A stretch of 64,000 bases of DNA from Citricoccus sp. CH26A. GTDB taxonomy: Bacteria; Actinomycetota; Actinomycetes; Actinomycetales; Micrococcaceae. The DNA lies in assembly GCF_000224415.1 (NCBI RefSeq), contig NZ_AFXQ01000012.1:1-64000 (forward strand). Direction: 5' to 3'. This document shows, piece after piece, positions 17,566-42,557 of the stretch. Each line of letters opens with the position of its first letter. The stretch's first letter is position 1. The notes below the pieces were generated by a model. It did not search any database and was not told the DNA's origin. It worked only from the letters and a program-made list of their open reading frames with translations. A program made the position numbers and the translations under genes.

Positions 17566-18428
17566 GTCCCCACGTCCAGCCCGAGGTCCAGTGAGCGCAC
17601 GCTGTGCGTCAACGCCCCCACGGAGATCACGTCCACGCCCGTGGCGGCGATGTCGGCGACCGTGTCCAGGCTGACGCCGCCGCTGGCCTCCACGATGGCC
17701 CGGTCGCCGATGATCGCCACGCCCTCGCGCAACTCGTCCAGGGTGAAGTTGTCCAGCATGATCGTGTCCACCCCGGCGGCGAGCACGTCCGGGATCTGGT
17801 CCAGCCGATCGACCTCGACCTCCAGGTGTGCCGTGTGGGGGAGCAGGTGCCGGGCCCGCACCAGCGCCTCGGTCAGGCTGACCCCGGCACCGGCCAGGAA
17901 CGCCAGGTGGTTGTCCTTGGCCATGACCGCGTCCGAGAGGGAGTGCCGGTGATTGTGGCCGCCGCCGTCGCGCACCGCCTGGCGCTCCAGGACGCGCAGG
18001 CCCGGGGTGGTCTTGCGGGTGTCCACGATCCGCGCGGGGGTGGCCGCCACCGCGGCCACGTAGCGCGAGGTCTCGGTGGCGATGCCGGACATCCGCTGGA
18101 CGAAGTTCAGGCCGATCCGCTCGCCGCGCAGGATCGCGCGCGCCGGACCGCTGACCTCGGCCAGCACGGTGCCGGCCTCGAACGCCGCCCCGTCCTGGAC
18201 CCAGGTGCTCACGGACAGCTCCGGGTCCACGAGCCGGAAGGCGGCCGTGAACGCCGCCGTGCCGCTCAGCACGCCGGGCTCACGGGCCACCAGTCGCGCG
18301 GTCCCCGTGGCCGAGGCCGGCACCAGCACCTCCGAGGTGAGATCGCCCCAGGGGGCATCCTCCTCGAGGGCCGCGGCGACGATCCGCTCGACCTGGACGC
18401 GCCCGACCGGCTGGGACCAGGCGCTCAT
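17562..18428 (-). CDS. nadC: nicotinate-nucleotide diphosphorylase (carboxylating)
   Basis: Quinolinate phosphoribosyltransferase: converts quinolinate and PRPP to nicotinate mononucleotide, CO2 and PPi in de novo NAD synthesis. The 288-residue protein contains EDAPWGDLTSEVL, GERIGLNFVQRMSGIAT, the substrate-binding DTRKTTPGLRVLE(R)QAV and GGGHNHR, and the C-terminal barrel motifs IMLDNF and EASGGV. The ATG at 18428 overlaps the nadA stop by ATGA and the stop overlaps the desulfurase start, so translation is coupled along the operon. Confidence 0.95.
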   Translation of the reverse strand: MSAWSQPVGRVQVERIVAAALEEDAPWGDLTSEVLVPASATGTARLVAREPGVLSGTAAFTAAFRLVDPELSVSTWVQDGAAFEAGTVLAEVSGPARAILRGERIGLNFVQRMSGIATETSRYVAAVAATPARIVDTRKTTPGLRVLERQAVRDGGGHNHRHSLSDAVMAKDNHLAFLAGAGVSLTEALVRARHLLPHTAHLEVEVDRLDQIPDVLAAGVDTIMLDNFTLDELREGVAIIGDRAIVEASGGVSLDTVADIAATGVDVISVGALTHSVRSLDLGLDVGT

Positions 18429-19867
18429 CGCGTCACCCCCGTGGCCGGTCCCGCGGGTGAGGCGTCCGCACCGGCCGCGGCCCCGCCCGCGTCCGGACCG
18501 GCCGGCGTCGGGACCGGACGGGCGGCGGGGGCGACGGTGAGCATCCGCTCCAGGGCGACCCGCGCCGGGTCCGCGACGTCGGCGGGCACCTGGATGCGGT
18601 TGACCACCTCGCCGGCGACGAGCGACTCGAGCACCCAGGCGAGGTAGCCGGGGTGGATGCGGTACATGGTGGAGCAGGGGCAGATCACCGGGTCCAGGCA
18701 GAAGATGGTGTGCTGCGGGTACTGCGCGGCCAGGCGCTGGACGAGGTTGATCTCGGTGCCGATCGCGAAGGTGGAGCCGTCCGGGGCGGCCTGGATGGCC
18801 TTGACGATGAAGTCCGTGGAACCGGCGGAGTCCGCGGCGTCGACCACCGGCATCGGGCACTCGGGGTGCACGACCACGTGGACGTCCGGGTGCTCGGCGC
18901 GGGCCCGCGCGATCTGGTCCACGGTGAAGCGCTTGTGCACCGAGCAGAAACCGTGCCACAGGAGGACCTTCGCCTGCTGCAGCTCCTCCTCGGTGTTGCC
19001 GCCCAGCGGCTTGCGCGGGTTCCACAGCGGCATCCGGTCCAGGCCGATGCCCATGGCCTTGGCGGTGTTGCGGCCCAGGTGCTGGTCCGGGAAGAACAGC
19101 ACGCGCTGGCCGCGCTCGAAGGCCCACTCCAGGACGGAGGAGGCGTTGGAGGAGGTGCAGACGATCCCGCCGTGCTCACCCACGAAGCCCTTCAGGGCGG
19201 CCGAGCTGTTCATGTAGGTGACCGGGATGACCGGGGCGCGGCCCGTCTCGTCCGGCGCGGTGCCGTACACCTCCTCGAGCTGCTCCCAGCAGTCGGCCAC
19301 GGAGTCCAGGTCGGCCATGTCCGCCATCGAGCAGCCAGCGGCGAGGTTCGGCAGGATGACCGCCTGGTCCTCGGTGGAGAGCAGGTCCGCGGTCTCGGCC
19401 ATGAAGTGCACGCCGCAGAAGACGATGGCCTCGGCCTCCGGACGGGTCCTGGCGGCCTTGGCGAGCTGGAAGGAGTCGCCCACGAAGTCCGCGTGGGCCA
19501 CCACCTCGTCGCGCTGGTAGAAGTGGCCGAGCACCACGACCCTCTCGCCCAGGGTCTCCTTGGCCGCGCGGATCCGCTCGTGCAGCTCGTCGTCGGAGGC
19601 GCGCTGGTACTGCTCCGGGAGCGCACCCTGCCGGGGTGCACCGGCGGGGATCGCGTCCTGCTGCGAGGCACCCGGTCCGTACCCGGGGGTGCCGGCGTCG
19701 AAGGTCCAGGGCCCGGCCGTCAGGTCCGGGGAGCAGGAGGAGCCGCGCGTGGAGCCGGTGGCGATGAGGTCCAGCGCGCGGTGCACGGAGGCGCCGGCGC
19801 GCGGGGACAGGCCGGGGCCGGAGGGGGCCGGCGGAGTGACGGCGGGGGAGTCGGCGGTGGTGGTCAC
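18425..19867 (-). CDS. nadA: quinolinate synthase
   Basis: [4Fe-4S] enzyme condensing iminoaspartate with dihydroxyacetone phosphate to quinolinate. The 480-residue protein is of the long actinobacterial type: a variable N-terminal 100 residues, then VVVLGHFYQRDEV, the first cluster Cys in LAAGCSMADMA, VVHPECPMPVV, and the C-terminal Cys region CLDPVICPCSTMYRIHPGYLAWVLE. The C-terminal 40 residues are Ala/Pro-rich. GTG at 19867 overlaps the nrtR stop (GTGA). nadB, which normally lies between nadA and nadC and makes the iminoaspartate, is absent here. Confidence 0.95.
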   Translation of the reverse strand: MTTTADSPAVTPPAPSGPGLSPRAGASVHRALDLIATGSTRGSSCSPDLTAGPWTFDAGTPGYGPGASQQDAIPAGAPRQGALPEQYQRASDDELHERIRAAKETLGERVVVLGHFYQRDEVVAHADFVGDSFQLAKAARTRPEAEAIVFCGVHFMAETADLLSTEDQAVILPNLAAGCSMADMADLDSVADCWEQLEEVYGTAPDETGRAPVIPVTYMNSSAALKGFVGEHGGIVCTSSNASSVLEWAFERGQRVLFFPDQHLGRNTAKAMGIGLDRMPLWNPRKPLGGNTEEELQQAKVLLWHGFCSVHKRFTVDQIARARAEHPDVHVVVHPECPMPVVDAADSAGSTDFIVKAIQAAPDGSTFAIGTEINLVQRLAAQYPQHTIFCLDPVICPCSTMYRIHPGYLAWVLESLVAGEVVNRIQVPADVADPARVALERMLTVAPAARPVPTPAGPDAGGAAAGADASPAGPATGVTR

Positions 19868-22251: not shown

Positions 22252-22291
22252 TGTGATGTGCATTACAGTAGTCTCCCGGAATCAGCCACTG

Positions 22292-22500
22292 AGCGGTCCG
22301 GGAGAGATCCCGCACCACCCAAGATGCGCGACGCCGAAGGAGCAAGCCCTCCCCGGGAATCTCTCAGGCCCCCGTACCGGATCGCTGGGCACCTCTGGAA
22401 AGCGTCGCCACACCCACGCGCGACCACCGACGGGGCAAGCGGCCGACCGGCTCCCGGCCGGCACGACGCGAAACTCTCAGGTCCATGGACAGAGCGGGGA
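22292..22500 (+). ncRNA. tandem glycine riboswitch (gcvT element)
   Basis: Two glycine aptamers in series. Aptamer 1 is closed by P1 arms AGCGGTCCGG (22292-22301) and CCGGATCGCT (22377-22386, one G-U pair) and holds the conserved core GCCGAAGGAGCAA and GAATCTCTCAGGC. Aptamer 2 is closed by CTCTG (22393-22397) and CAGAG (22490-22494) with ACCGACGGGGCAAG and GAAACTCTCAGGT. These conserved blocks are those of the glycine riboswitch family. Only 45 nt separate aptamer 2 from the permease ATG, with a small GGGAC/GTCCC hairpin and the ribosome binding site GAGGAGA (22534-22540) between. Glycine would control this transporter; turn-on is usual for the class but not shown here. Confidence 0.9.
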
Positions 22501-22544: not shown

Positions 22545-23900
22545 ATGGAACCCAGCCGCCCCACCGGGCCCGTCGCCGTCGGGACCGAGGCCGGACCAGC
22601 CGGCCACGCCCCCGCCGCAGCCCCGACCCTCGAGAGGCCGGCACCCGGTCGTCCGGACGGCGCGGCCGCCGCGCCGGGCTGGAACCGCTTCGACTCGAGC
22701 TGGACGATCGGACTGTTCGGCACGGCCGTGGGCGCCGGCGTCCTGTTCCTGCCGATCAACGCCGGCCTGGGCGGGATGTGGCCGTTGATCATCGCCACGC
22801 TGATCATCGGGCCGATGACCTACTTCTCCCACCGGGCGCTGTCCCGCATGGTGGTCGCCTCACCCCGGGCCGACCGTGACATCACCGGCGTGGTGCGGGA
22901 CTACTTCGGCGAGGGCGCCGGCCGCCTGGTCACCATCCTGTACTTCCTGGCGATCTTCCCGATCGTGCTCATCTACGGCGTCGGCATCACCAACACCGTG
23001 GACAGCCTCATGGTCAACCAGCTGGGCATGGGCCCGTGGCCGCGCTGGCTGCTCTCCGGGGTGCTCGTGCTGCTGATGTCCGCCGTGATGGTGGCGGGCC
23101 AGCGCGTCATGCTGATCGTCACCCAGTGGCTGGTCTACCCGCTGATCGCGGTCCTGTTCTCCGTCACCCTGCTGCTCATCCCGTCCTGGTCCTTCGAGGG
23201 CTTCGGGGCCGTACCCGCCGCCGGTGACTTCGCGATGTCCCTGTGGCTGATGATCCCCGTGCTGGTCTTCGCGTTCAACCATTCCCCGGCGATCTCGCAG
23301 TTCTCCGTGTCCCTGCGCCAGCGTTACGGCGCCGGTTCGGTGCAGAAGGCCTCCTCCGTCCTGCGCGTCACCTCCATCCTGCTGGTGGTCTTCACCATGG
23401 GCTTCGTCTGGTCCTGCGTGCTGGCCCTCGGCCCGGAGGGGCTGCAGGCCGCCAAGGACGCCAACCTGCCGGTGCTCTCGCACCTGGCCAACGTCATGGG
23501 CCTGCCGATCATCGCCTGGCTCGGACCGGCGGTGGCCGTCACGGCCATCGGCTCGTCCTTCTTCGGCCACTGGCTCGGGGCGTTCGAGGGCGCCCAGGGC
23601 ATCATGCGCGGCATGGTGGACCCGCAGTCCCGTCGCTTCTCCGACCGCGGACTGCGGATCGGGATCAGCGTGTTCCTCATCGCCAGCACCTGGATCGCCG
23701 GGGTGCTCAACCCGAGCATCCTGGGACTCATCGAATCGCTGGCCGGTCCGGTCATCGCGGCCGTGCTCTACCTGATGCCGATGTACGCCATCCGGAAGGT
23801 CCCCGCCCTGGCGCCGTTCCGGGGCGCGATCTCGAACGTCTTCGTGGTCATCGCCGGCATCGTGGCGGTCGGGGGCATCCTGCTCAGCCTGCTCGGCTGA
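22545..23900 (+). CDS. serine/threonine-type amino acid permease (HAAAP/SdaC family)
   Basis: Inner-membrane amino acid transporter of 451 residues with 11 hydrophobic segments after a 45-residue Pro/Ala-rich tail. Helix 1 carries WTIGLFGTAVGAGVLFLPINAG, the substrate/ion-binding region of the hydroxy/aromatic amino acid permease family, and FNHSPAISQFSVSLRQRYG is characteristic of SdaC/YhjV-like serine permeases. It stands alone behind a tandem glycine riboswitch, which argues for a link to glycine-serine metabolism: serine, threonine or glycine movement across the membrane. Direction and exact substrate are inferred. Confidence 0.85.
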   Translation: MEPSRPTGPVAVGTEAGPAGHAPAAAPTLERPAPGRPDGAAAAPGWNRFDSSWTIGLFGTAVGAGVLFLPINAGLGGMWPLIIATLIIGPMTYFSHRALSRMVVASPRADRDITGVVRDYFGEGAGRLVTILYFLAIFPIVLIYGVGITNTVDSLMVNQLGMGPWPRWLLSGVLVLLMSAVMVAGQRVMLIVTQWLVYPLIAVLFSVTLLLIPSWSFEGFGAVPAAGDFAMSLWLMIPVLVFAFNHSPAISQFSVSLRQRYGAGSVQKASSVLRVTSILLVVFTMGFVWSCVLALGPEGLQAAKDANLPVLSHLANVMGLPIIAWLGPAVAVTAIGSSFFGHWLGAFEGAQGIMRGMVDPQSRRFSDRGLRIGISVFLIASTWIAGVLNPSILGLIESLAGPVIAAVLYLMPMYAIRKVPALAPFRGAISNVFVVIAGIVAVGGILLSLLG

Positions 23901-29851: not shown

Positions 29852-31702
29852 CTAACCCGCCTCGGCGTAGGACTCCACCGCGGCGACCGTGAGCGGGAAC
29901 TCCACCGGTGCCGCCCCGAACAGCAGCCGGCCGGCGGTCGCGGCCGCCTCGGTGACGATCTGTCCGACGGCGGGGGCCTCCTCGGCGGGCCCGTGCAGCA
30001 CCACCTCGTCATGGACGAAGAACACCAGCCGGGTTCGCAGCCCCCGCTTATGGTCCCGGTGGCCCGCGCGCAACCGGCGCCGGATCTCACCCATCCAGCA
30101 CAGGGCCCACTCGGCCGCCGTGCCCTGGACCACGAAGTTGCGGGTGAACCGGCCGGCCGCCGCGCGCATCGACCGGGACCGGGACTCGGCCTCGGCCGTG
30201 CCGACGTCCCGGACCCCGGCCAGCCAGTCCGGCCCCACCGCCGGGGAGGTCCGGCCCAGCCAGGTGGCCACCTGGCCGCCCTCCTCGCCGCGGCGCGCGG
30301 CCCGCTCGAGCAGCCCGATGGCCTCGGGGTACAGGCGGCGCAGGTGCGGCATCAGCACGGCCGAGTCACCCGTCGTGGCCCCGTACATGGCACCGAGCAG
30401 CGCGATCTTCGCCCGGGTCCGGTCACCGATCCCGGACCCGGTCTGCCGGCCCTGCTCCGCCACCGCCAGGTACAGGTCGTGCCCGCCGCCGGCGGCCGCC
30501 AGGGCCCGGTCCTGTGACATGGCCGCCAGGATGCGCGGTTCCACCTGGGAGGCATCGGCCACGGTGAGCAGCCATCCCGGGTCCGCCCGCACGGCATCCC
30601 GTACGGCCGCGGGGACCTGCATGGCCCCGCCGCCGTGGGCGGCCCAGCGCCCGGTCACCACCCCGCCCACCGCGTACGCGGCGTGGAAGCGGCCGTCCCG
30701 GACCCACTCGTCCAGCCAGTGCCAGCCGTTGGCCGTCCACAACCGGTACAGGTGCTTGTACTCCAGCACGGGTGCCACCAGCTCCGCGCGGCGCGGCGAG
30801 TCCGCACCGCCGCCACGGGCCCATTCCTTCAGTTCCCAGGCCCGGGTGGAGGACACCCGCACCCCGGCCGCCGTGAGTCCCCGCAGCAGGTCCTGGGGAG
30901 AATCGGGATTGAGGCCGGGGACGCCGAGGCCCGCGGCGATGCGCTGGGCCAGCTCCTGCAGCAGCCGCGGCCGTTCGCCCTCCCGGGGGCGGGGCCCGAG
31001 CCGGCGCCGGAGCATCTCCTCGTGGACGTCCCGGCGCCAGGGCAGTCCCTCCTGCAGCATCTCCGCCGCGACCAGCGCACCCTGGGACTCCGCGGCCAGC
31101 AACAGCATCAGGCGCTGCGGATGCCGGGCACCGGCGACGGCGGCCAGCTGGGTGGCCAGTTCCCGCGCCAGCTCGGTGGCCCCGGGGCTGCCGTCCCGTC
31201 CGGCACCCGCGGCCGGCAGGTCGAAGAACGCCTCCTGGTCCGGCGGCCCCGGCCGCGGGGCCTGACCGTAGGGTTCCGGGTCCCGGACGGGCACGACGGC
31301 GGCGGGGGAGTACCGCACGCCGGTCGCCTCGAGCGTGGCCGCACCGAGGAGGATGCGCTGGGCGAGGCCGAGGTCCCAGCACCGGCCGAGTTCGATGCCG
31401 GCCCGCAACAGCGGCGGGTAGTCGGTGGCCACGGAGGCGAACACCCAGCGGATGGACGCGGGGTCCGTCCCGAGGCGCTCCGGCAGCGCCCGGACGAGGC
31501 CGGGCAGCTGGTCCGGGCCGGCCGTGGGTCCCCGTGCGATCCGGTCACCGTCGACCAGGACGGCCTCCCACGATCCCGGGGTGCCGGAACCGCTGCGTGC
31601 CGGTACCGGGGCGGACCGGGCGGACGACCCGGCAGGCGGTGCCGACGACCCGGCGGACGGGCCCGCCGAGGCCGCGGCGGCCGGACCGAGGACGATGTGC
31701 AT
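29852..31702 (-). CDS. family A DNA polymerase (3'-5' exonuclease-like/polymerase)
   Basis: A PolA-related polymerase of 616 residues lacking the 5' nuclease domain, of the type that accompanies full-length PolA in actinobacteria and probably acts in repair. The polymerase palm carries motif A (VADASQVEPRILAAMSQD), the O-helix region DRTRAKIALLGAMYGATTGD and motif C FFVHDEVVLHG with catalytic Asp. The N-terminal third should be the exonuclease-like fold but clear exonuclease acidic motifs are not evident, and an Ala/Pro/Ser-rich stretch (about 10-45) interrupts it; proofreading is doubtful. ATG at 31702 is used, four codons after a GTG-type alternative. Confidence 0.85.
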   Translation of the reverse strand: MHIVLGPAAAASAGPSAGSSAPPAGSSARSAPVPARSGSGTPGSWEAVLVDGDRIARGPTAGPDQLPGLVRALPERLGTDPASIRWVFASVATDYPPLLRAGIELGRCWDLGLAQRILLGAATLEATGVRYSPAAVVPVRDPEPYGQAPRPGPPDQEAFFDLPAAGAGRDGSPGATELARELATQLAAVAGARHPQRLMLLLAAESQGALVAAEMLQEGLPWRRDVHEEMLRRRLGPRPREGERPRLLQELAQRIAAGLGVPGLNPDSPQDLLRGLTAAGVRVSSTRAWELKEWARGGGADSPRRAELVAPVLEYKHLYRLWTANGWHWLDEWVRDGRFHAAYAVGGVVTGRWAAHGGGAMQVPAAVRDAVRADPGWLLTVADASQVEPRILAAMSQDRALAAAGGGHDLYLAVAEQGRQTGSGIGDRTRAKIALLGAMYGATTGDSAVLMPHLRRLYPEAIGLLERAARRGEEGGQVATWLGRTSPAVGPDWLAGVRDVGTAEAESRSRSMRAAAGRFTRNFVVQGTAAEWALCWMGEIRRRLRAGHRDHKRGLRTRLVFFVHDEVVLHGPAEEAPAVGQIVTEAAATAGRLLFGAAPVEFPLTVAAVESYAEAG

Positions 31703-31762
31703 GCCCCCAGTCAACCGGACGCCGCGACCGCGCCGGTACTTTCGCCCTGCCCCCGGCTGGGA

Positions 31763-31768
31763 TAGGTT
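31763..31768 (+). promoter_or_regulatory. -10 box of fdhA, leaderless start
   Basis: TAGGTT ends 6 nt before the fdhA ATG at 31775, so transcription should start at or next to the A of ATG. The -35 region at the usual spacing (31740-31745, TTTCGC) is weak, as is common for such promoters. Confidence 0.5.
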
Positions 31769-31774
31769 GGTCCC

Positions 31775-34700
31775 ATGGCACGGTTCAGCTTCCTGGAATG
31801 GCCGGTCATCCGGCAGTTCCGCACGGACGACTCCTCCGGTCGAAGCTCTGCCGTGACCTCTCCGACCACGCGGGCCATCGCCCCGCGCACCACCACCGCG
31901 GACCGCTCCGTGCAGAGCGTGTGCCCGTACTGCGCGGTGGGCTGCGGGCAGAAGGTCTTCGTCACGGACGAGAGGGTCGTGCAGATCGAGGGGGACCCGG
32001 ACTCACCGATCTCCCGCGGTCGGCTGTGCCCCAAGGGGTCGGCGAGCGAACAGCTCGTCAACGCCTCCAACCGCCAGACGAAGGTCCTCTACCGGGCGCC
32101 GCGGGCCACCGAGTGGCAGGAGATGGACCTCGAGACCGCCACCGAGATGGTGGTGGACCGGTTCCTGGCGTCCCGCCGCAACGGCTGGCAGGACCTGGAC
32201 GAGCAGGGCCGCCGGCTGGCCCGCACCATGGGGATCGCCTCCCTGGGCGGGGCCACGCTGGACAATGAGGAGAACTACCTCATCAAGAAGCTGTTCACGG
32301 CGGCCGGCGCGATCCAGATCGAGAACCAGGCCCGTATTTGACACTCCGCCACGGTTCCCGGTCTGGGGACCTCCTTCGGGCGCGGCGGCGCCACCCAATC
32401 GCTGCAGGACATGGCCAACGCTGACTGCATTGTCATCCAGGGCTCGAACATGGCCGAGGCCCACCCCGTGGGCTTCCAGTGGGTGACCGAGGCCAAGGCG
32501 CGCGGTGCCAAGGTCTTCCACGTGGACCCGCGCTTCTCGCGCACCTCGGCGGTGGCGGACAAGCACGTGCCGATCCGTGCCGGTTCGGACATCGTGCTGC
32601 TGGGCGCGCTGATCAACTACGTCCTGACCCACGAGAAGTGGTTCAGGGAGTACGTGGTGGCCTACACGAACGCCGCGACGATCGTGAACGAGGACTTCCG
32701 GGACGCCGAGGACCTGGACGGGCTGTTCTCCGGGTACGACGAGGAGTCCGGCGGCTACGACATGGAGTCCTGGGCCTACGAGCCGGAGCCCGGCAGCGGT
32801 TCCGGGGGCACCGGCGTCGGGGACGGGACCGCGGGGGACAGCGCCCGGGAGGACGGGGCGGAGGCCTCCACGGAGGCGGCCGGCCAGCAGTACGGTTCCG
32901 GTGGCCCGGACGTCGAGACGCACGTGCCGCGCCGGGACGAGACGCTGCAGCACCCGCGCACCGTGTTCCAGATCCTGAAGCGCCACTACGCGCGCTACAC
33001 CCCGGAGATGGTGCGGGACGCCTGCGGGATCCCGGTGGCGGACTTCGAGGAGCTGGCCCGGACGATCACGGAGAACTCCGGCCGCGAGCGCACCACCTGC
33101 TTCGCCTATGCCGTGGGCTGGACGCAGCACACGGTCGGCGCCCAGTACATCCGCACGGCCACCATCCTGCAGCTGCTGCTGGGGAACATGGGACGCCCGG
33201 GCGGGGGCATCATGGCCCTGCGCGGCCACGCGTCCATCCAGGGCTGCACGGACATCCCCACCCTGTTCAACCTGCTGCCCGGGTACCTGCCGATGCCCAC
33301 CGTGGAGAAGCAGGACCTGGGTACCTACCTGGACTCGATCGCCTCCAAGAAGCAGAAGGGCTACTGGGCCGAGGCGGACGCCTACACCGTCAGCCTGCTC
33401 AAGGCCTGGTGGGGGGATGCCGCCCACGCGGGCAACGACTACGCCTACGACTACATCCCCCGCCTCACCGGTCCCCACGGCACCTACCAGACCGTGGAGG
33501 GGATGATCGCCGGGGACGTCGAGGGCTACTTCCTGCTCGGGCAGAACCCGGCGGTCGGCTCCGCCAACGGCCGCATGCAGCGGATGGGCATGTCCCACCT
33601 GAAGTGGCTCGTGGTCCGGGACTTCCAGCTCATCGAGTCCGCCACCTGGTGGAAGGACGGTCCGGAGATCGCCACCGGCGAGCTGCGCACCGAGGACATC
33701 GAGACCGAGGTGTTCTTCTTCCCGGCCGCCAACCACGTGGAGAAGGCCGGCACCTTCACCCAGACCCAGCGTCTGGTGCAGTGGCGCCACCAGGCCGTGG
33801 CCCCGCCGGGTGACGCCCAGTCCGAGCTGCAGTTCTTCCACGAGCTCGGCAAGCGGATCCGGGCCCGGCTGGCGGACTCCACCGACCCCCGCGACCGCCC
33901 GCTGCTGGACCTGACCTGGGACTACCCGGAGGACGAGCACGGGGAGCCCGACGGCGAGGCCATCCTGCAGGAGATCAACGGCCACCAGCTCACCGGGCCC
34001 GACGCCGGCACGCTGCTCTCCAGCTACACCCAGTTGAAGGCGGACGGTTCCACGGCCGGTGGCTGCTGGATCTACACCGGCGTCTTCGCGGACGGGATCA
34101 ACCACGCCGCCGACCGCACTCCGGGCGGTGGCGACGGTCCCCAGACCGAGGAATGGGGCTGGGCCTGGCCCTCGAACCGGCGGATCCTGTACAACCGGGC
34201 CTCGGCGGACCCGCAGGGCCGGCCCTGGAGCGAGCGCAAGAAGCTCGTCTGGTGGGATGAGGACCAGGGCAAGTGGGTCGGCAACGACATCCCGGACTTC
34301 CCCGTGGACCGTGCGCCCGGCAGCACCCCGGACCCCTCATTGGGCGGTGCGGCCGCGCTGGCCGGGGACGACCCGTTCATCATGCAGGCCGACGGCAAGG
34401 GCTGGCTCTTCGCGCCCAAGGGGATGGTCGACGGTCCGCTGCCGACCCACTACGAGGCGCAGGAGTCCCCGGTGCGCAACCCGCTGTACCGGCAGCAGCA
34501 CAACCCCACCCGGGTCACCCTGCCCCGCAAGGACAACCTCAGCGCGCCCGAACCGGGCGCCCCGGGGTCGGACGTGTACCCCTTCGTGTTCACCACGTAC
34601 CGGCTGACCGAGCACCACACCGCCGGCGGGATGAGCCGGTGGCTGCCGTACCTGGCCGAGCTGCAGCCCGAGATGTTCTGCGAGGTCTCCCCGGAACTGG

Positions 34701-35155
34701 CCGCCAAGCGCGGGCTGGAACCCTACGGCTGGGCCACGCTGATCTCCCCGCGGGCGGCCATCGAGGCGAAGGTCCTGGTCACCGAGCGGATGAGGCCGCT
34801 GCGGGTGGGCGGACAGACGGTCCACCAGATCGGACTGCCCTACCACTGGGGCGTCGGCAACGACGCGGTCGTCACGGGTGACTCCGCCAATGACCTGCTG
34901 GGCATCACCCTGGACCCGAACGTGCTCATCCAGGGCTCCAAGGTCGGCGCCGTGGACATCCGGCCGGGACGGCGACCCCAGGGCAGGCAGCTGTTGCAGC
35001 TGGTGGAGGACTACCAGCGCAGGGCGCACCTGACCGTGGAGTCGGGCAACGAGGGCGTCACCGGCAGCCACGAGGAGGCCGGCGCCGAGGAGGCCACTGA
35101 CCGGTCCGAGCGGCTGGACCACGAATCGACGGACCAGCCAGGAGCCGAGGAGTAG
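31775..35155 (+). CDS. fdhA: formate dehydrogenase alpha subunit, selenocysteine at codon 189 (TGA)
   Basis: Molybdopterin (bis-MGD) enzyme oxidising formate to CO2; its electrons pass to the iron-sulfur subunit encoded next. The 1126-residue product is obtained only if TGA at 32339-32341 is read as selenocysteine: upstream the chain ends IENQARI, downstream it resumes HSATVPGL in the same frame, exactly the Sec-His position of FDH-N/FDH-O/FDH-H. A [4Fe-4S] site is formed by Cys50, 53, 57 and 85 (CPYCAVGC, GRLCPKG). Further molybdopterin motifs follow (GRPGGGIMALRGHASIQG; FLLGQNPAVGSANGRMQR). A Gly/Ser/Glu-rich insert lies near residues 330-385 and the C-terminus is acidic. No twin-arginine signal is evident, so it is probably cytoplasmic-facing. 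Gene predictors will split it in two. Confidence 0.95.
32353..32371 (+). promoter_or_regulatory. bacterial SECIS hairpin within fdhA
   Basis: Stem GGTTCCC/GGGGACC (7 bp, one G-U) closes a five-base loop GGTCT. Eleven nt separate the TGA from the stem, and the loop G's lie 19 nt after it. Escherichia coli fdhF uses the same GGUCU loop and spacing to bind the SelB winged-helix domain. This identifies the TGA as a selenocysteine codon independently of homology. Confidence 0.9.
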
Positions 35156-36349
35156 ATGCAGCGACTGACCGCACCGGACGCGGCCGCCGTGGGGGACAAC
35201 CCCACGGCGGACGCCCACTACGAGCACCCCCACGCCCGCAAGGGCTTCTTCACGGACACCTCGATCTGCATCGGCTGCAAGGCCTGCGAGGTGGCCTGCA
35301 AGGAGTGGAACCGCAACCCGGCGGACTCGGACTACGAGCTGTCCAACTCCTCCTTCGACAACTCCGAGGGCCTCAGCGCGGACACCTGGCGCCACGTCGC
35401 CTTCATCGAGCAGGACCGCGGCCGCATCGAGGCGGCCCGCGAGTCCGGGCGCGCACTCGTGAGCCTGGGCATGCCCCGGATCCGTCCCGCCGACGTGCCC
35501 ACCACCGCGGGGGAGGCGATCACCACCGCCGTCACCGGGGGGATGACCGGCCCGCTCTCGGAGGTGGCCGGGCGACCGCCGGCGGGCCTTCCCCCCGCCC
35601 CTGACCTCGGGGAACTCGACGTGCTGTCCTCGCTGGGCGGCGGGCCCACCCGGCCCGAGGACGCGGGTGCCGTGGACACGACCCCGCCGGACACCCCCGA
35701 GTTCCGCTGGCTGATGTCCTCGGACGTCTGCAAGCACTGCACCAACGCCGGCTGCCTGGACGTGTGCCCCACCGGGGCGCTGTTCCGCACCGAGCACGGC
35801 ACGGTGGTGGTCCAGGACGATGTCTGCAACGGCTGCGGCACGTGCGTGGCCGGCTGCCCGTTCGGGGTCATCGAGCGGCGCAAGGACGGCATCGCCCAGC
35901 CGAAGACGGAGCGCTCCGCGGCCCCGGTCACGCCCACCGGGCCCGGGAAACCGGAGAAGGCCCGCAACGTCGGCGTGGCCCAGAAGTGCACGCTCTGCTA
36001 TGACCGGCTCGTCGACGACCAGACCCCGGCCTGCGCCCAGGCCTGCCCGACGACGTCCATCAAGTACGGCGAACGCGAGGACCTGGTGAGCGGGGCCCGG
36101 GAGCGGGTGGCCCGGCTCCACGCCGAGGGGCGCACCGAGGCCCGGCTCTACGGGGCCAACCCGAACGACGGCGTCGGCGGGACCGGGTCGGTGTTCCTGC
36201 TGCTGGACGAGCCGGAGGTCTACGGCCTGCCGCCGGACCCCCGCGTGCCGACCGCCGACCTGCCCCGCATGTACGCCCGCGCCGGGCTCGCCATGGCCGG
36301 GATGGCCGCGGCCTCCGCGCTCGCGTTCGTGCTGGGAGGACGCCAGTGA
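35156..36349 (+). CDS. fdhB: formate dehydrogenase iron-sulfur (beta) subunit
   Basis: Electron-transfer subunit of 397 residues with four ferredoxin-type [4Fe-4S] clusters: CIGCKACEVAC (about 38-48), CKHCTNAGCLDVCP (near 192-205), CNGCGTCVAGCP, and CTLCYDRL...CAQACP. A C-terminal hydrophobic segment (AGLAMAGMAAASALAFVLGG) anchors it in the membrane, as in FdnH. Between the first and second clusters is a Pro/Gly-rich insertion of about 90 residues (about 90-185) not expected in the E. coli protein. ATG follows the fdhA TAG with no gap, and the stop overlaps the next GTG (GTGA). It should relay electrons from FdhA to the NrfD-type subunit and quinone. Confidence 0.93.
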   Translation: MQRLTAPDAAAVGDNPTADAHYEHPHARKGFFTDTSICIGCKACEVACKEWNRNPADSDYELSNSSFDNSEGLSADTWRHVAFIEQDRGRIEAARESGRALVSLGMPRIRPADVPTTAGEAITTAVTGGMTGPLSEVAGRPPAGLPPAPDLGELDVLSSLGGGPTRPEDAGAVDTTPPDTPEFRWLMSSDVCKHCTNAGCLDVCPTGALFRTEHGTVVVQDDVCNGCGTCVAGCPFGVIERRKDGIAQPKTERSAAPVTPTGPGKPEKARNVGVAQKCTLCYDRLVDDQTPACAQACPTTSIKYGEREDLVSGARERVARLHAEGRTEARLYGANPNDGVGGTGSVFLLLDEPEVYGLPPDPRVPTADLPRMYARAGLAMAGMAAASALAFVLGGRQ

Positions 36350-37573
36350 CCACCTCCGAGTTCGACCGTTACCGCCCGCCGGAGGAGCCCCGGCGCCGGC
36401 GCCGCAGGGACCGGGACTCGCCCGCCGCGGGCCGAGAGGCGTCGGCGTATGCCGTGGGCACGGCGACGGGCGCCGGCGTGCCCACCGCACCGGCCGGCGC
36501 CGCCCCCGGTGCGGGCAGGCGCCGCGGGGACTGGCCCCGGCCGGCAGCGACGGTGCGCGCGAGATGGCCATGGTGCCGGAACCCGAGTTCGCCCCGCCGA
36601 CGGTTACTACGGCCGCCCCGTGGTCAAGGCGCCGCCGTGGGACGAGCGGGTCGCGCTGTACCTGGTCTGCGGCGGGATCGCCGGCGGGTCAGCCCTGCTG
36701 GCGTTCGGCGCCCAGCTCACCGGCCGCGACGCGCTGCGGCGCAACGCGCGGCTGACCGCCCTCGGCACGGCCAGCGTCGGGGCCCTCGCCCTGGTGGCGG
36801 ACCTGGGCCGGCCCGAGCGGTTCCTCAACATGCTGCGCACCATCAAGCCGACCTCCCCCATGAGCCTGGGGTCGTGGATCCTGGCCGGGTTCAGCACCGG
36901 TGCCGGCCTGGCCGCCGTCGCGGACCTGGACCGGATGACCGGTGAGGTGCTGCCGCTGGGCCCGCTGCGGTCCGTGCTGCGCGCGTTCGAGGCGCCGGCC
37001 GGTGCCCTGGCCGCCCTGCTCGGCGCGCCGCTGGCCGGTTACACCGCCGTGCTGCTCTCGGACACCGCGATGCCCACGTGGAACGCCGCGAAGGACGACC
37101 TGCCGTTCGTGTTCGTCTCCTCCGCGTCACTGGCCTCGGGCGGGATGGCCATGATCACGACGCCGACCGCCCAGGCCGGACCGGCCCGCGCCCTCGCGCT
37201 GGCCGGGGTGGCCGGTGACCTGGTCGCCGCCCAGGCCATGGAGCGCAGGATGGACCCCGTGGCCGCCGAACCCCTGCACCAGGGCCGCCCCGGGTGGCTG
37301 ATGCGATGGAGCGAACGGTTGGCGATCGTCGGCGGCATCGGCACGGTCGCCGCGGGGGTGACCGCGCGGACCGCCCCTCGGGCCAGTCGCTGGGTCGCCG
37401 CAGCCTCGGGGGCGGCACTCGTCACGGCGTCGGCGTTCACCCGGTTCGGGGTGTTCTATGCCGGCAAGGACTCCGCCATGGACCCCCGCTACACGATCGA
37501 ACCGCAGAAGCGCCGGCTGGAGGCGCGCCGCCGCGCCGGCATCACGCACGACTCCATCACCACCGCGGGCTGA
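36346..37573 (+). CDS. fdhC: NrfD-type membrane subunit of formate dehydrogenase, frameshifted near the N-terminus
   Basis: Polytopic membrane protein of the NrfD/PsrC family, expected to pass formate electrons to quinone. The body (from DGYYGRPVVKAPPW at about 36600 to the stop at 37573) is intact, with about eight hydrophobic segments. The N-terminus is not in the same frame: GTG at 36346 (overlapping the fdhB stop) encodes TSEFDRYRPPEEP plus an Arg-rich tail in frame 1, then GSDGAREMAMVPEPEF reads in frame 3 (36543-36590), then the body in frame 2. Two single-base deletions, in 36500-36545 and 36588-36602, would explain this. An ATG at 36449 in the body frame would give a 374-residue protein with an unrelated basic N-terminus. 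Either sequence errors or a damaged gene. Confidence 0.75.
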
Positions 37574-37587
37574 ACCGGCAGGTCATC

Positions 37588-38667
37588 TCACCGCACGCGG
37601 ATGCCGCTGCCGGCCACCGTCTCGCCGATCACCGGGTAACCCGGCACCTCCCCAACGACCAGCAGCCCGCCGGAGGTCTGGGCGTCGGCGAGCAGCAGCA
37701 GGTCCTCCTCGGACACGGGGGCGTCCGCGCTCACGTGCGGGCGCACCCAGCCCAGGTTGCGGCGGGTGCCGCCGGAGACGAAGCCGTCGCGCAGGGCCTC
37801 GGCGGCGCCCTCCACGAGCGGCACCGCGGTCCGGTCGATGACCGCGCCCACCCCCGAGGCCCGCATCATCTTGTGCAGGTGGCCCAGCAGCCCGAACCCC
37901 GTGACGTCGGTGGCGGCGCGCGCCCCGGAGGCCAGGGCCGCGTCCGCGGCGTCCCGGTTCAGGGCGGTCATGGACGCGATGGCCGCGGTGAAGACCTCGC
38001 CGGTCTGCTTGTGCCGGTTGTTCAGCAGCCCGACCCCGATCGGCTTGGTCAGCGTGATCGGCAGCCCCGCCTCGGCGGCGTCGTTGCGCAGCAACCGGTC
38101 CGGACGGGCCACCCCGGTGACGGCCATCCCGTACTTGGGCTCCGGGTCGTCGATGGAGTGCCCGCCGATGACCGGGCACTCGGCCTCGGTGGCCACGGCC
38201 AGGCCGCCGCGCAGCATCTCGCTCATCAGCTCCATCGGCAGCGCCGACCGCGGCCAGCCCACCAGGTTCAGCGCGACGACGGGCGTGCCGCCCATCGCAT
38301 AGATGTCTGAGAGGGCGTTCGCGGCCGCGATCCGGCCGAAGTCATAGGCGTCGTCCACCATGGGGGTGAAGAAGTCCGCCGTGGACAGCACGGCCAGGTC
38401 CTCCCGCAGCAGCACGGCCGCGGCGTCGTCACCGTCGTCCAGGCCGACGAGCACCTCCGCCGCGCCCGGGGTCTGCCGGCCGACCAGCCCCCGCACGGCG
38501 TCCTCCAGCTCACCCGGCGGGATCTTGCAGGCACACCCGCCACCGCTGGCGTACCCGGTCAGCCGGACCGCGGCGGACGTCGTCGGCCTCGTGCCGTCCT
38601 CGCCCCGGGCAACGGCGGTGTGGGTGGTGGGGGTCTCGGTCGTCGTGCCCGGCGCGGTGGTCTCCAT
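37588..38667 (-). CDS. selD: selenophosphate synthase
   Basis: Makes selenophosphate from selenide and ATP, the selenium donor for SelA. The 359-residue protein has the Gly-rich active-site loop YASGGGCACKIPP with Cys (not Sec) at the catalytic position, DDAAAVLL and LSTADFFTPMVDDAYDFGRIAAANALSDIYAMGG metal-binding segments, GGHSIDDPEPKYGMAVTG and DVTGFGLLGHL. ATG at 38667 is chosen because TACAGT (minus strand, 38679-38674) lies 6 nt upstream; a longer reading would run through the divergent tRNA-Sec gene. Convergent with fdhC, 14 bp apart. Confidence 0.95.
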   Translation of the reverse strand: METTAPGTTTETPTTHTAVARGEDGTRPTTSAAVRLTGYASGGGCACKIPPGELEDAVRGLVGRQTPGAAEVLVGLDDGDDAAAVLLREDLAVLSTADFFTPMVDDAYDFGRIAAANALSDIYAMGGTPVVALNLVGWPRSALPMELMSEMLRGGLAVATEAECPVIGGHSIDDPEPKYGMAVTGVARPDRLLRNDAAEAGLPITLTKPIGVGLLNNRHKQTGEVFTAAIASMTALNRDAADAALASGARAATDVTGFGLLGHLHKMMRASGVGAVIDRTAVPLVEGAAEALRDGFVSGGTRRNLGWVRPHVSADAPVSEEDLLLLADAQTSGGLLVVGEVPGYPVIGETVAGSGIRVR

Positions 38668-38673
38668 GCGGCC

Positions 38674-38699
38674 ACTGTAGCCACGCCCGGTGGTAGTTT
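38674..38699. promoter_or_regulatory. compact divergent promoters of selD and tRNA-Sec
   Basis: Only 39 bp separate the selD ATG from the first tRNA base. On the minus strand TACAGT ends 6 nt before the selD ATG; on the plus strand TAGTTT (38694-38699) ends 7 nt before the tRNA. The two -10 boxes are 14 bp apart, so the polymerases probably exclude one another. Confidence 0.45.
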
Positions 38700-38706
38700 C
38701 GACCAT

Positions 38707-38801
38707 GGAGGCGTCCGGGTCCTGGTGGGCCCCCCGGTCTTCAAAACCGGTGAGGCCGGGCATCCCGGCCTGGCGGGTTCGATTCCCGTCCGCCTCCGCC
38801 A
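38707..38801 (+). tRNA. selC: tRNA-Sec (anticodon UCA)
   Basis: A 95-nt gene with every hallmark of bacterial tRNA-Sec. Acceptor GGAGGCG/CGCCTCC (38707-38713 with 38791-38797), discriminator G and encoded CCA. Six-bp D stem GGGTCC/GGGCCC with a four-base loop. Anticodon stem CCGGT/ACCGG with loop CTTCAAA, anticodon TCA at 38741-38743. Long variable arm of 8 bp (AGGCCGGG-CAT-CCCGGCCT). T arm GGCGGG-TTCGATT-CCCGTC, so acceptor plus T stem total 13 bp. It lies between selD and selA and decodes the fdhA TGA. Confidence 0.97.
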
Positions 38802-38852
38802 ACCACGGTGCCTGCCCCCGCAGCGCACCCGCCCGCCTGCCCGAGGAGGACC

Positions 38853-40193
38853 GTGACCGAGCAGCGCCTCGCGCAGGACCCCCGCCGCAGGATCCCGCGC
38901 ACCGATGACCTGCTGGCCCTGCCCGAGGTCGCGGCCGCCCGGTCCCGGCTCAGCGAGGCGGTGCTGCGGGAGACGGTGCGGCGGGCGCAGGACCGGGCCC
39001 GGTCCGGTCAGATCGCCCCCGACGACGTCGCCCCCGCCCTGGTGGCCGACCTCGCCGCCCGCTCGGCCACCAGCCTGCGTCCGGTGCTCAACGCCACCGG
39101 GGTGGTGGTCCACACCAATCTGGGCCGGGCACCGCTGTCCGAGGCCGCCGTCCAGGCGCTGGTGACCGCCGGCGGCTACGTGGACGTGGAGCTGGACCTC
39201 GCCTCCGGGGTGCGGTCCCGGCGGGGCGCCGGAACGCGGGAGGCGCTGCTGGCCGCGCTGCCGGAGGCCGAGGACGCCCTGGTCGTCAACAACGGGGCGG
39301 CCGCGCTCGTGCTGGCCACCACCGCCCTGGGCGCGGGTCGAGAGGTCATCGTCAGCCGCGGGGAGTTCGTGGAGATCGGCGCCGGCTTCCGGTTGTCGGA
39401 CCTGATCGCATCCACGGGCGCGCGGCTGCGCGAGGTCGGCACCACCAACCGGACGCACCTCGCCGACTACGCCGACGCGGTCGGCCCGGACACCGGTTGC
39501 CTGCTCAAGGTCCACCCGTCCAACTTCCGCGTCAGCGGATTCACCGCCGCCGTGCCGGTCGCCGGGCTCAGGGACCTGGCCCTCGAGCGGGGTGTGCCGC
39601 TCGTGGTGGACGTCGGCTCCGGGCTGCTGCGCCACGACCCGGCGTTGCCGCAGGAACCGGACCTGGCCTCGGCCCTCGCCGACGGCGCGGACGTCGTCAT
39701 CGCCAGCGGGGACAAGCTGCTGGGCGGCCCGCAGGCCGGACTGCTGCTGGGCCGTGCGGAGGTCATCCAGCGCCTGGCCCGGCACCCGCTCGCCCGGGCC
39801 GTCCGCGCGGACAAGCTCTCCCTGGCCGCCCTGGAGGCCACGCTCGTCGGGGGTCCTGCTCCGGTGGCCCGGTCCCTGCACGCCGACCCGGGACGGCTGC
39901 TCGAACGGACCGAGACGCTGGCCCGGGACCTGGCGCGGGGCGGTGCCGCGACGGTCGTCCCGCACGACGGACGCGTCGGCGGCGGGGGAGCGCCCGGGGT
40001 CCCACTGCCCGGCTGGGCCGTGCGGCTGCCCGAGGCGGTCGCCCCGTTGCTGCGCGCCGGGGATCCCGCGGTGCTTCCGCGCGTGCACGACGGCGCGTGC
40101 CTGGTGGACCTGCGCTGCGTCCCCGAGTCACGCGACGAGGCGCTCACCGCCGCGGTGCGCTCGGCCCTGGACGCGCTCGGCGGGGACTCCTGA
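38853..40193 (+). CDS. selA: L-seryl-tRNA(Sec) selenium transferase
   Basis: PLP enzyme converting Ser-tRNA-Sec to Sec-tRNA-Sec with selenophosphate; a large cytoplasmic homo-oligomer. The 446-residue protein shows the N-terminal tRNA-binding helices (RRRIPRTDDLLALPEV), VLNATGVVVHTNLGRAPLSEAA, VNNGAAALVLATTAL, KVHPSNFRVSGFT and the PLP Lys in SGDKLLGGPQAGLLLG. GTG at 38853 is preceded by GAGGAGGA (38843-38850); an ATG 45 bp upstream would lie almost against the tRNA. selB follows after one base. Confidence 0.96.
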   Translation: MTEQRLAQDPRRRIPRTDDLLALPEVAAARSRLSEAVLRETVRRAQDRARSGQIAPDDVAPALVADLAARSATSLRPVLNATGVVVHTNLGRAPLSEAAVQALVTAGGYVDVELDLASGVRSRRGAGTREALLAALPEAEDALVVNNGAAALVLATTALGAGREVIVSRGEFVEIGAGFRLSDLIASTGARLREVGTTNRTHLADYADAVGPDTGCLLKVHPSNFRVSGFTAAVPVAGLRDLALERGVPLVVDVGSGLLRHDPALPQEPDLASALADGADVVIASGDKLLGGPQAGLLLGRAEVIQRLARHPLARAVRADKLSLAALEATLVGGPAPVARSLHADPGRLLERTETLARDLARGGAATVVPHDGRVGGGGAPGVPLPGWAVRLPEAVAPLLRAGDPAVLPRVHDGACLVDLRCVPESRDEALTAAVRSALDALGGDS

Positions 40194-40194
40194 G

Positions 40195-42002
40195 ATGTAC
40201 GTCGTCGCCACTGCCGGGCACGTCGACCACGGCAAGTCCACCCTCGTCCGGGCCCTGACCGGGATGGAACCGGACCGCTGGGCGGAGGAGAGGCGCCGGG
40301 GGCTGACCATCGACCTGGGCTTCGCCTGGACCGCACTGCCGTCCGGCCGCGAGGTCGCCTTCGTGGACGTCCCGGGCCACGAGAGGTTCCTGGCGAACAT
40401 GCTCGCCGGGCTCGGACCGGCACCGGTGGCCTGCCTCGTGGTGGCCGCGGACGAGGGGTGGAAACCGCAGTCCGGGGACCACCGCGATGCCATCGCGGCC
40501 CTGGGGATCGAGCACGGCCTCATCGTCATCACTCGCGCCGACCTCGTCGCCCAGGACGGCCCGGACGCGGCGGGCGCACGGATCCGCGCCGTGCTGGACC
40601 GGGTCCGCGCCGAGCTCGCGGGGACCGGGCTCGCCGGGGCACCCGCCGTCGTGGTGTCCGCGGCGACCGGCGCCGGACTCGAGGACCTGCGCCGGGCCCT
40701 CGACGACGTGCTGGCCGCCACCGGCGCCCCGGACGCCACCGGGCGGGTCCGGTTGTGGGTGGACCGGTCCTTCACGGTCAAGGGGGCCGGCGCCGTGGTC
40801 ACCGGCACCCTGGCGGCCGGGACGCTGGCCGCCGGTGACCGGTTGGAGCTGCTCGGCGCGGGACCACCGCGCGACGTCTCCGTCCGCGCGCTGCACAGCC
40901 GCAACGCCCCCCACGAGTCCATCGGGCCGGTCAGCCGGGTGGCGGTGAACCTGCGCGGGGTGGACGCCGAGGCCGTCCACCGGGGGGACGCCCTGGTCAC
41001 GCCCGGGGCCTGGCCGCTGGCCGCCGTCGTGGACGTCCGCCGGACCACCGGGGACAGCCTCGTCGAGGCCCCCGCGGAGCTGCTGGTGCACGTCGGCACC
41101 GCCACGGTCCCCGTCCACGTGCGCCCCTTCGACGACGCCCACGCCCGGCTGACGCTCCAGCGGCCCCTGCCGCTGGTGCCCGGTGACCGGCTGGTGCTGC
41201 GCGATCCGGGGGCCCGGACGATCCTGGGCGGGGTGCGGGTGCTGGACGTGGACCCCCCGGCGCTCACCCGCCGGGGGACGGCACGCGACGCGCCGCGACC
41301 CTGGCGGCCATGCCCGACGGCGGGGATCCCCTCGGAGAGATCGCCCGCCGGGGCGCGGTGCGGGCCGAGGACCTGGACCGGCTCGGGCTGACGGTGCCGG
41401 CGGACGCCGCGGGGGTCCGGCGGCTGGGGCAGTGGTGGGTCCACGAGCCCGTCCTGACCGGTTGGTGCGAACGCGTGCGCGCCGCCGTGATCGGGCTGGC
41501 CGAACGGGACCCGCTGGCCCCCGGGGTGAGCCGCGGCGCCGCGCTGGACCTGGTGGCCGTGCCGGACCCGGTCCTGCTGGACGCCGTGGCGGCCGAGGCC
41601 GGGCTCGTGCACGAGGCCGGGTACCTCGTCCTGCCGGGGGCGCACCGGGGACTCGGCGCCGCCGAGCACGCCGTGGCCGCGGTCGAGGACCGGCTGGCAC
41701 TGGACCCGTTCAGCGCCCCGGAGGGTGACGAGCTGACGGCACTGCGGCTGGGGGCCCGAGAACTGGCCGCGGCGGAACGTCTCGGCCGCCTGCTGCGGCT
41801 GGACGGGTCCGTGGTGCTGCTGCCCACGGCTCCGGCCCTGGCGATGCGCGAACTGGCCCGGCTGGACCAGCCCTTCACCACCAGCCAGGCCCGCCGGGCC
41901 CTGGGCACCACCCGGCGGGTGGCGATCCCGTTGCTGGAGTTGCTCGACGCCCGTGGCTGGACCCGTCGGCTGGACGCCGGGCACCGCGAGGTGGTGCGCT
42001 GA
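40195..42002 (+). CDS. selB: selenocysteine-specific elongation factor SelB, frameshifted in a G run
   Basis: GTPase delivering Sec-tRNA-Sec to ribosomes paused at a SECIS-marked UGA. The EF-Tu-like part is intact: G1 GHVDHGKS, DVPGHERFL, TRAD as G4, then the beta-barrel domains (VDRSFTVKGAGAVVTGTL). The first frame stops at 41391, but the C-terminal winged-helix region that binds SECIS continues in another frame (GTRRAATLAAMPDGG through to the stop at 42002). Reading one extra G in the five-G run 41273-41277 joins VLDVDPPALTRRG to DGTRRAATLAAM without a seam, giving 602 residues, normal for SelB. Either a missed base in a homopolymer or a mutation that would abolish selenocysteine insertion. 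Confidence 0.9.
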
Positions 42003-42008
42003 CCGCGG

Positions 42009-42030
42009 CACCCACCGTCGCCGGCGGGTG
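42009..42030. terminator. hairpin after selB
   Basis: CACCC and GGGTG close an inner CCG-TCGC-CGG across one A/C mismatch, 7 nt after the selB stop and convergent to the lipoprotein gene. Confidence 0.4.
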
Positions 42031-42059
42031 ACTCCCGCACGGATCCCGATGCCACGGTG

Positions 42060-42557
42060 CTAGGGCAGGTCCTCGTCGGCCACCTCGAGGTGTTCCACGG
42101 TCCGGTTCCCGACCGGGGTCTCGGTCGTCACCACGATGGAGGCGGTCCGGCCCACCAGGGCGCAGTTCTCCGGTGCACCGGGCACCAGGCCGACGATCGT
42201 GGCCACCCGGATGCCGGAGTCGTCCTCTTCGACGGCGGTGCGCGATCCGTAGCAGTCGGGCGTCCCGGTGGGGAAGTGGAAGCGCAGTTCCCGCTCCGAG
42301 ACGACCTCGTAGTCCGTCCACTCCACGACCTGCTGGCCGGTCAGGTCGTCCCGGGGCTCGTCGTCCACGACGGCGTCCCCGGTGGTGTCCTGCGTGGGGG
42401 CCGAATGGGCGGTGGAGCTGCCGCTCACCTCACTGCCACCGCTCTCGGCCCCGCCGCCCGGATCCTGGCGGGCACAGCCGGCCCCCGCAGCCGTCAGCAG
42501 GGCCACCCCGGCCAGGACGGCCACGAGGCGGTATCCGCCGTGGGAGATCGGTCTCAC
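42060..42557 (-). CDS. putative lipoprotein, unknown function
   Basis: A 165-residue exported lipoprotein: basic start, hydrophobic core LVAVLAGVALLTAAGAG and lipobox Cys at about 28 (AGAGC). A Gly/Ser/Thr-rich linker of about 40 residues leads to a small domain with two Cys (TPDCYGSRT and ENCALVG) that may form a disulfide. No family recognised. Its ATG overlaps the stop of the secreted protease gene upstream by ATGA, so they are co-translated; it could anchor, modulate or protect against the protease, but this is inference from linkage. Confidence 0.75.
   Translation of the reverse strand: MRPISHGGYRLVAVLAGVALLTAAGAGCARQDPGGGAESGGSEVSGSSTAHSAPTQDTTGDAVVDDEPRDDLTGQQVVEWTDYEVVSERELRFHFPTGTPDCYGSRTAVEEDDSGIRVATIVGLVPGAPENCALVGRTASIVVTTETPVGNRTVEHLEVADEDLP

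Follow-up and report, generated by a model that had tools for sequence, protein, structure and literature searches.

Decoding of UGA as selenocysteine (Sec) needs four genes and a client, and its patchy spread is therefore a long-standing puzzle. Bases 1-64000 of contig C56 from the draft genome of Citricoccus sp. CH26A (3.47 Mb, 67 contigs), hereafter the window, bring this question down to a single locus, in which a formate dehydrogenase (FDH) with an in-frame TGA codon is encoded together with the Sec genes. A preliminary description of this locus had proposed that such a compact cassette could move as a unit. Was the copy in the window acquired by transfer, or inherited with the chromosome around it? 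According to our data it is very probably a standard actinobacterial selenocysteine FDH cassette, transmitted vertically within the genus with one local move, while the same block is mobile elsewhere and the breaks seen in two of its frames are likely assembly errors, all these points being taken jointly.

Composition of the cassette

The seven genes of the cassette were confirmed at positions 31775-42002 (Table 1). With its TGA read as U, FdhA forms one continuous frame, and the whole protein reached 1925 bits with NF041513 (formate_DH_Act), the actinobacterial FDH model, for a cut-off of 1400; a single TGA fell inside the match, as in all seven genus genomes with a full FdhA, and no difference from this model was found. 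The whole decoding pathway is present, as had been described: tRNA-Sec, SelA and SelD (381.3 bits, curated cut-off 125) were over their cut-offs, and so was the first part of SelB alone (262.5 bits vs 242.25), ahead of the point where its frame is broken. A mechanically called open reading frame (ORF) carries selD across the tRNA gene to 38802, its true start being probably near 38667. The GCACK motif of SelD is taken here as the mark of a Cys form, a meaning that we presume for it. Gene orientation suggests three transcription units, namely fdhA-fdhB-nrfD forward, selD backward and tRNA-Sec-selA-selB forward; a promoter and terminator scan of 31500-42300 returned no match.

Going by the families of these proteins, SelD would make selenophosphate, SelA would turn Ser-tRNA-Sec into Sec-tRNA-Sec, and SelB would bind the hairpin past the UGA and deliver Sec-tRNA-Sec there. 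The product would be a membrane-anchored molybdenum formate dehydrogenase passing electrons taken from formate on to the quinone pool, and it would need FdhD, encoded elsewhere, for its maturation. Formate dehydrogenases in general need FdhD to mature; seryl-tRNA synthetase and the genes of the molybdenum cofactor are further requirements. Calling the cassette self-contained, as was done at first, is thus an overstatement, because fdhD is located on another contig (C52). Among 26 chosen genomes, fdhD was over the cut-off in 24, being absent in G004 and partial in G006; its carriers include two relatives without selA (G010, G012) and five genomes whose FDH is of the Cys form only.

Table 1. Features of the cassette and one flanking gene, in positions of the window
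Feature	Position	Strand	Remarks
fdhA, selenocysteine formate dehydrogenase alpha subunit	31775..35155	+	1126 aa, Sec = residue 189
In-frame TGA codon for selenocysteine	32339..32341	+	only U of the fdhA frame
Hairpin resembling a selenocysteine insertion sequence (SECIS-like)	32353..32371	+	7-pair stem, loop GGUCU, starts at 12th base after TGA
fdhB, ferredoxin-like iron-sulphur subunit	35156..36349	+	hydrophobic C-terminal stretch by eye
nrfD-type membrane anchor	36346..37573	+	split over three frames in the assembly
selD, selenide water dikinase	37588..38667	-	Cys form going by GCACK motif
tRNA-Sec (selC)	38707..38801	+	anticodon TCA; RF01852 79.6 bits, gathering 47
selA, selenocysteine synthase	38808..40193	+	TIGR00474 416.7 bits, cut-off 267.9
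selB, Sec elongation factor	about 40195..42002	+	frame change near 41274-41325
nadA (flanking gene)	18425..19867		

Broken frames in nrfD and selB

Three frames share nrfD: its first codons follow that of 36346, a stretch around 36528 uses the second, and the membrane part (36593-37573) uses the third, the changes falling between about 36468 and 36593. Each of the two broken genes occupies a single frame in G003 and G007, as does the part of selB present in G006. The frame changes are most likely assembly indels, because the relatives are intact, other genes of the contig are also broken, and the ratio of nonsynonymous to synonymous substitution (dN/dS) past the selB break is not raised against the closer relatives (0.18 for G006 and 0.23 for G003, compared with 0.24 and 0.25 before the break). 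At least two more genes of the contig switch frame relative to G003, at 52316-53286 of the window and at 64695-66388 of contig C56 (L153).

True recent pseudogenes in a strain that is losing the Sec trait would be the other way to explain these breaks, and we consider this unlikely. In its favour, the breaks hit two members of the same system whose counterparts in relatives are intact, the comparison with the more distant G001 gave a higher dN/dS past the selB break than before it (0.34 vs 0.25), and a precedent exists in the frameshifted selB of some Yersinia strains (PMC1273633). However, pseudogenes would require two changes in nrfD, and neither the unraised dN/dS against G006 and G003 nor the frame changes in other genes of the same contig would be expected from them. 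Assembly error accordingly remains our preferred explanation for both genes.

The read-through signal and its clients

Comparison of the bases behind the TGA covered 39 TGA and 12 Cys-codon FdhA loci which, together with the window, yielded 21 Sec and 10 Cys distinct 48-base sequences. A full stem, counted from the 12th base past the TGA, was present in 20 of the 21 Sec sequences and in none of the 10 Cys sequences, and the valine codon within it was GTT in every Sec sequence and in no Cys sequence. In the window, fdhA has 68 valine codons, and the one in the stem is the sole GTT. Judged by these alignments, the hairpin after the TGA is not a product of chance, because both the stem and the GTT codon are present in Sec forms and absent in Cys forms. 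One hairpin sequence contained a double compensating change; covariation was weak overall (27 of 500 shuffles matched the observed level) because most stem pairs are invariant. Single-sequence folding gave no signal over shuffles (z 0.03 to 0.33) and was dropped as evidence in favour of the comparison of homologues. The loop presumably resembles that of E. coli fdhF.

A hairpin model trained on fdhA alone was used to score the best 150 of 3585 candidate places, and fdhA was its sole match in its own genome (next E 4.7), in line with the earlier view of fdhA as the only visible client. A second use for SelD was also considered and rejected, as no tRNA selenouridine synthase was matched in the genome. 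The possibility that the machinery serves other selenoproteins elsewhere in the genome draws on the narrowness of the model, which knows fdhA only and was applied to these 150 places; but the single match, the missing match to a selenouridine synthase, the Cys form of SelD itself and the presence of FdhA beside selA in 71 of 71 family genomes with selA leave it a low probability in our estimation.

Vertical descent within the genus

FdhA was found in seven of the eight genus genomes. The exception, G004, gave no match for selA, FdhA or fdhD and no SelD over the cut-off, and it was also without both flanking genes tested (VWA protein and nadA). Gene-order maps showed a colinear neighbourhood in the remaining genus genomes, within which the cassette occupies one of two addresses. 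In G000, G003, G006 and G007 it lies between the polA-like gene and the HD-VWA-AAA genes (address A); in G001, G002 and G005 it lies in the same orientation about 10 kb from there, flanked by NUDIX and DcuC-like genes (address B). A comparison of presence and synteny among relatives had been suggested from the outset, with a common place in all close relatives and gene trees matching the species tree as the mark of vertical descent. Within the genus this is largely what was observed, one neighbourhood being shared; the three species with address B depart from it.

All trees were quick searches, with SH-aLRT (approximate likelihood-ratio test) support only. In the rpoB tree, the genomes with address A grouped together (88, not starred), as did those with address B (99), and both the concatenated cassette tree and the FdhA tree agreed with rpoB inside the genus. 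The five genus rows formed one starred clade for SelA (94-row tree, 96) as well as for FdhA (70-row tree, 100). Synonymous divergence (dS) between the window genome and G003 was 0.24-0.42 for pieces of the cassette and 0.22-0.40 for the flanks, and with G001 it was 0.53-0.77 and 0.52-0.76, respectively. On the strength of these comparisons the cassette is vertical within the genus, since synteny, trees and dS all disfavour a recent transfer into it.

The same neighbourhood was met in Kocuria. Loci L167 and L177 carry it at a third address, with SCO1664-type and esterase-like genes on either side, as does G011, which groups with these two named Kocuria loci. In the SelA and FdhA trees the cassette of the window falls in with Kocuria, and the copies of other members of its family fall in with Arthrobacter, Tersicoccus and Nesterenkonia, which places the organism in or near Micrococcaceae. 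The shared neighbourhood and the shifted addresses fit common descent with local moves; within the genus, the history would be one of vertical inheritance in one chromosomal neighbourhood with one local move.

Signs of a genomic island were scarce around the cassette. The only repeats were short imperfect pairs (19-38 nt, 68-95% identity), and the GC content of the cassette (0.70-0.78) was unremarkable next to that of the rest of the window (0.70-0.76). Neither end repeats nor odd composition marked its edges, and presence among close relatives was not sporadic. No integrase or transposase was recognised by eye among the flanking ORFs, and no dedicated search for such genes was made.

Several observations weigh against the overall reading. 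If the sequence is right as assembled, the broken selB and nrfD mean that the Sec system is dead in this strain. No twin-arginine start was seen by eye in FdhA, which may thus work on either side of the membrane. The cassette occupies two addresses in the genus rather than one, and SelA alone leaves the genus unresolved in a 16-genome tree. Outside the genus, cassette and rpoB trees conflict: rpoB puts G004, G008, G020 and G018 nearest to the genus, whereas the affinities of the cassette are with Kocuria- and Arthrobacter-type genomes, the G018 copy being placed with G041 and G046. As for descent beyond the genus, the rpoB neighbours G004 and G020 are without selA, and the G008 copy has other affinities, its SelA grouping with Brevibacterium and its FdhA with Leucobacter. 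Because of this disagreement between cassette and rpoB trees, the case for descent beyond the genus depends on Kocuria having the same neighbourhood. In G008 (L036, L143), from a genus close to that of the window, the tRNA-selA-selB block is inverted.

A recent acquisition by the strain or species through horizontal transfer could invoke the patchiness of selA in the family (see below), the two neighbours without selA, the affinities and inverted block of G008, the tree conflict outside the genus and the existence of plasmid copies, but it is very improbable in the face of a cassette kept in one neighbourhood by all genus genomes except one, the starred SelA and FdhA clades, dS values equal to those of the flanks, the short imperfect repeats, the ordinary GC content and the neighbourhood common to Kocuria.

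Distribution in the family

A survey of 295 genomes of the family found selA in 71 of them, from 14 of 32 genera, which confirms the patchy distribution assumed earlier; FdhA was found in 79. All 71 genomes with selA carry FdhA, and the TGA form was seen in 70; in G148, only the FdhA part behind the TGA was seen. FdhA without selA occurred in eight genomes. Five of these have the Cys form only (G128, G171, G183, G228, G256), and all the Cys-only genomes are thus without selA. The other three have the TGA form: G006, fragmented into 430 contigs, two of which belong to the same neighbourhood and bear FdhA and a portion of selB; G188, which is 71% complete; and G027, 99% complete, with FdhA close to a contig end. 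Natural pairs, of one Cys and one Sec form of FdhA from the same protein family, were found in seven genomes (G024, G109, G144, G196, G207, G218, G247).

Conservation of gene order and large inserts

A SelA-alignment scan of the genome collection gave at least 588 stretches with a relative, of which the best 80 were kept, all from Actinomycetota. The order fdhA, fdhB, nrfD, selD (reverse strand), tRNA, selA, selB was found in 44 of these 80 named loci, from at least 11 families. Eleven others had selD-tRNA-selA-selB ahead of fdhA-fdhB-nrfD, four had the FDH block inverted, 11 showed the Sec block but no fdhA within the stretch, and the last 10 were otherwise arranged or truncated.

Gaps of at least 700 bases in the 44 loci of standard order, measured between matched segments so that small gaps are overestimated, fell at nrfD/selD (10), selD/tRNA (6) and tRNA/selA (1), and none at the other three joints. 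Since the nrfD/selD gap is convergent and the selD/tRNA gap divergent, 16 of the 17 large inserts lie between transcription units and break no operon. Genomes with address B have a sugar-transporter gene between nrfD and selD, and G041 has a recQ-like gene there. The genes examined at this joint include those for an MFS transporter and a rhodanese (L197), a similar MFS protein (L216), an acyl-CoA dehydrogenase, a DUF222-HNH protein, a sulphur transporter, MgtC and RecQ; a cargo shared at the joint was rejected, the genes examined being different between loci. In G007 (L035, L097), about 11 kb of other genes separate nrfD from selD, by eye including a glycosyltransferase, a deacetylase, a 1098-aa repeat protein and a glycosidase-like gene. 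In G006 (L157, C331 18000-21688), about 1.7 kb of extra DNA separates selB from the next gene, against about 50 bases in the window.

Transfer in other actinobacteria and on plasmids

The FdhA trees took in 56 of the best 80 loci, 24 having no FdhA row long enough, and the groups submitted to the approximately unbiased (AU) test were picked after the trees had been seen. Mycobacteriaceae as one clade was rejected for SelA (p-AU 2.9e-5, 23 rows) and for FdhA (p-AU 6.4e-7, 21 rows) with L190 left out, a row of metagenome origin that bears the name Mycobacteriaceae and falls in with Corynebacterium; with L190 in, the value for FdhA was 0.0014 (22 rows). A single Brevibacterium clade was not rejected for SelA (p-AU 0.099, 5 rows, L222 left out), and the several clades suggested by the tree were not retained. 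In four mycobacterial loci, SelA belongs to one lineage and FdhA to the other (p-AU 1e-4 and 1.6e-4). These pairings indicate that the halves of the cassette can also part. The four mosaic loci (L214, L218, L225, L234) have the FDH block inverted.

SelA matches (E 1e-30) were found in 147 of 72,556 plasmid records, and the three with 60-80% identity were examined. Plasmid pYA7-1a of Arthrobacter sp. YA7-1 (NZ_CP110115.1; 129,773 bp) is typed conjugative (MOBP, MPF_T), with a relaxase and mobC annotated, and carries a complete cassette of the same seven genes in the same order as the window, with 75% identity for FdhA behind the TGA and 73% for SelA. In its fdhA the TGA precedes the same GTT-containing stem, its tRNA-Sec scored 75.1 bits, and its FdhA is nearest to Arthrobacter-type genome copies. 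Unlike the window copy, it resides on a conjugative plasmid and beside a Tn3-family transposase gene, which lies with a recombinase gene beyond selB; a site-specific integrase is found about 3.6 kb before fdhA. No long inverted partner of 260 transposase-side bases was found within a 31-kb stretch of the plasmid; the cassette may still be cargo of the Tn3 unit, but this reading was not adopted. TGA, hairpin and tRNA-Sec were likewise found, with the gene order unchanged, on a plasmid of Tsukamurella tyrosinosolvens (238,675 bp) typed as non-mobilizable. A Streptomyces anthocyanicus plasmid has selD, selA and selB listed, with no fdhA in the stretch. No paper describing plasmid copies of the cassette was recognised among the papers listed by the literature searches, which took in few subscription papers.

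In Actinobacteria at large, the block also travels whole and, at some loci, in separate halves. The suggestion that it could move as a unit holds for the cassette type, by virtue of the plasmid copies and the trees, but is not supported for the copy in the window, given its synteny, trees and dS.

Relation to known systems

The fdnG-fdxH-sel region of Corynebacterium aurimucosum resembles the window in that FDH genes are clustered with selD, selA, selB and selC and a UGA is present in the catalytic gene, and its gene order was termed highly conserved by the authors (PMC2830990). It belongs to another family than the window; SelA from six other Corynebacterium was 57-60% identical to that of the window. 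The FDH1 cluster of Actinomycetospora chiangmaiensis likewise combines a membrane-bound Sec FDH with SelA and SelB, but three Sec FDHs are present in this strain, for which SelD is listed apart from the cluster (PMC7176365). Selenium-dependent formate removal has been shown in this actinobacterium (PMC7176365).

As regards FDH-N (FdnGHI), the whole window FdhA passes the TIGR01553 cut-off for the alpha subunit with TGA read as U (920.1 vs 814.2), whereas the beta subunit stays far under that of TIGR01582 (158.4 vs 334.7). The anchor is of NrfD type and the twin-arginine start is lacking by eye. Filing under FDH-N was not adopted, although the alpha subunit passes and the beta subunit is the only one to fail its cut-off.

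It has been argued that the Sec trait moves only where selABC are clustered and a selenoprotein gene, in most cases fdhA, is transferred along with them (PMC1794560), and transfer of Sec genes is also discussed in PMC1273633. Sec genes were reported close together in donors and recipients, with transfers from other Actinobacteria into two Arthrobacter strains listed (PMC5029168). The cassette type and its layout, which is common among Actinobacteria, are already known, and the copy in the window is an ordinary one.

Neighbouring genes

The polA-like gene adjoining the cassette (29852-31714) is a bifunctional exonuclease/polymerase of PRK14975 type and is present in all five other mapped genus genomes. 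A tandem glycine riboswitch, with two RF00504 aptamers (62 and 45.1 bits) at 22289-22494, lies directly ahead of a membrane-protein gene (22545-23900), transporter-like by eye. The flanking gene at 18425-19867 is nadA rather than a gene for NAPRT. Flanking genes were named by eye, except for polA-like, nadA, SCO1664-type, DcuC-like, VWA and AAA chelatase-like, esterase-like and sugar transporter genes.

Implications for the spread of selenocysteine

A more general picture, to which we give about an even chance, is that of a portable cassette of two modules, fdhA-fdhB-nrfD and selD-tRNA-selA-selB, meeting at a convergent joint. It would travel whole on conjugative plasmids, enter the chromosomes of hosts from different families and orders that already possess fdhD, and then swap one module or shift its address locally. 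Plasmid pYA7-1a represents a concrete example of a conjugative carrier, probably from the family of the window itself, and the mosaic mycobacterial loci show that the halves can part; with both at hand, the transfer of an expanded genetic code becomes directly testable. If true, a portable two-module cassette would explain the patchy occurrence of selenocysteine in Actinobacteria.

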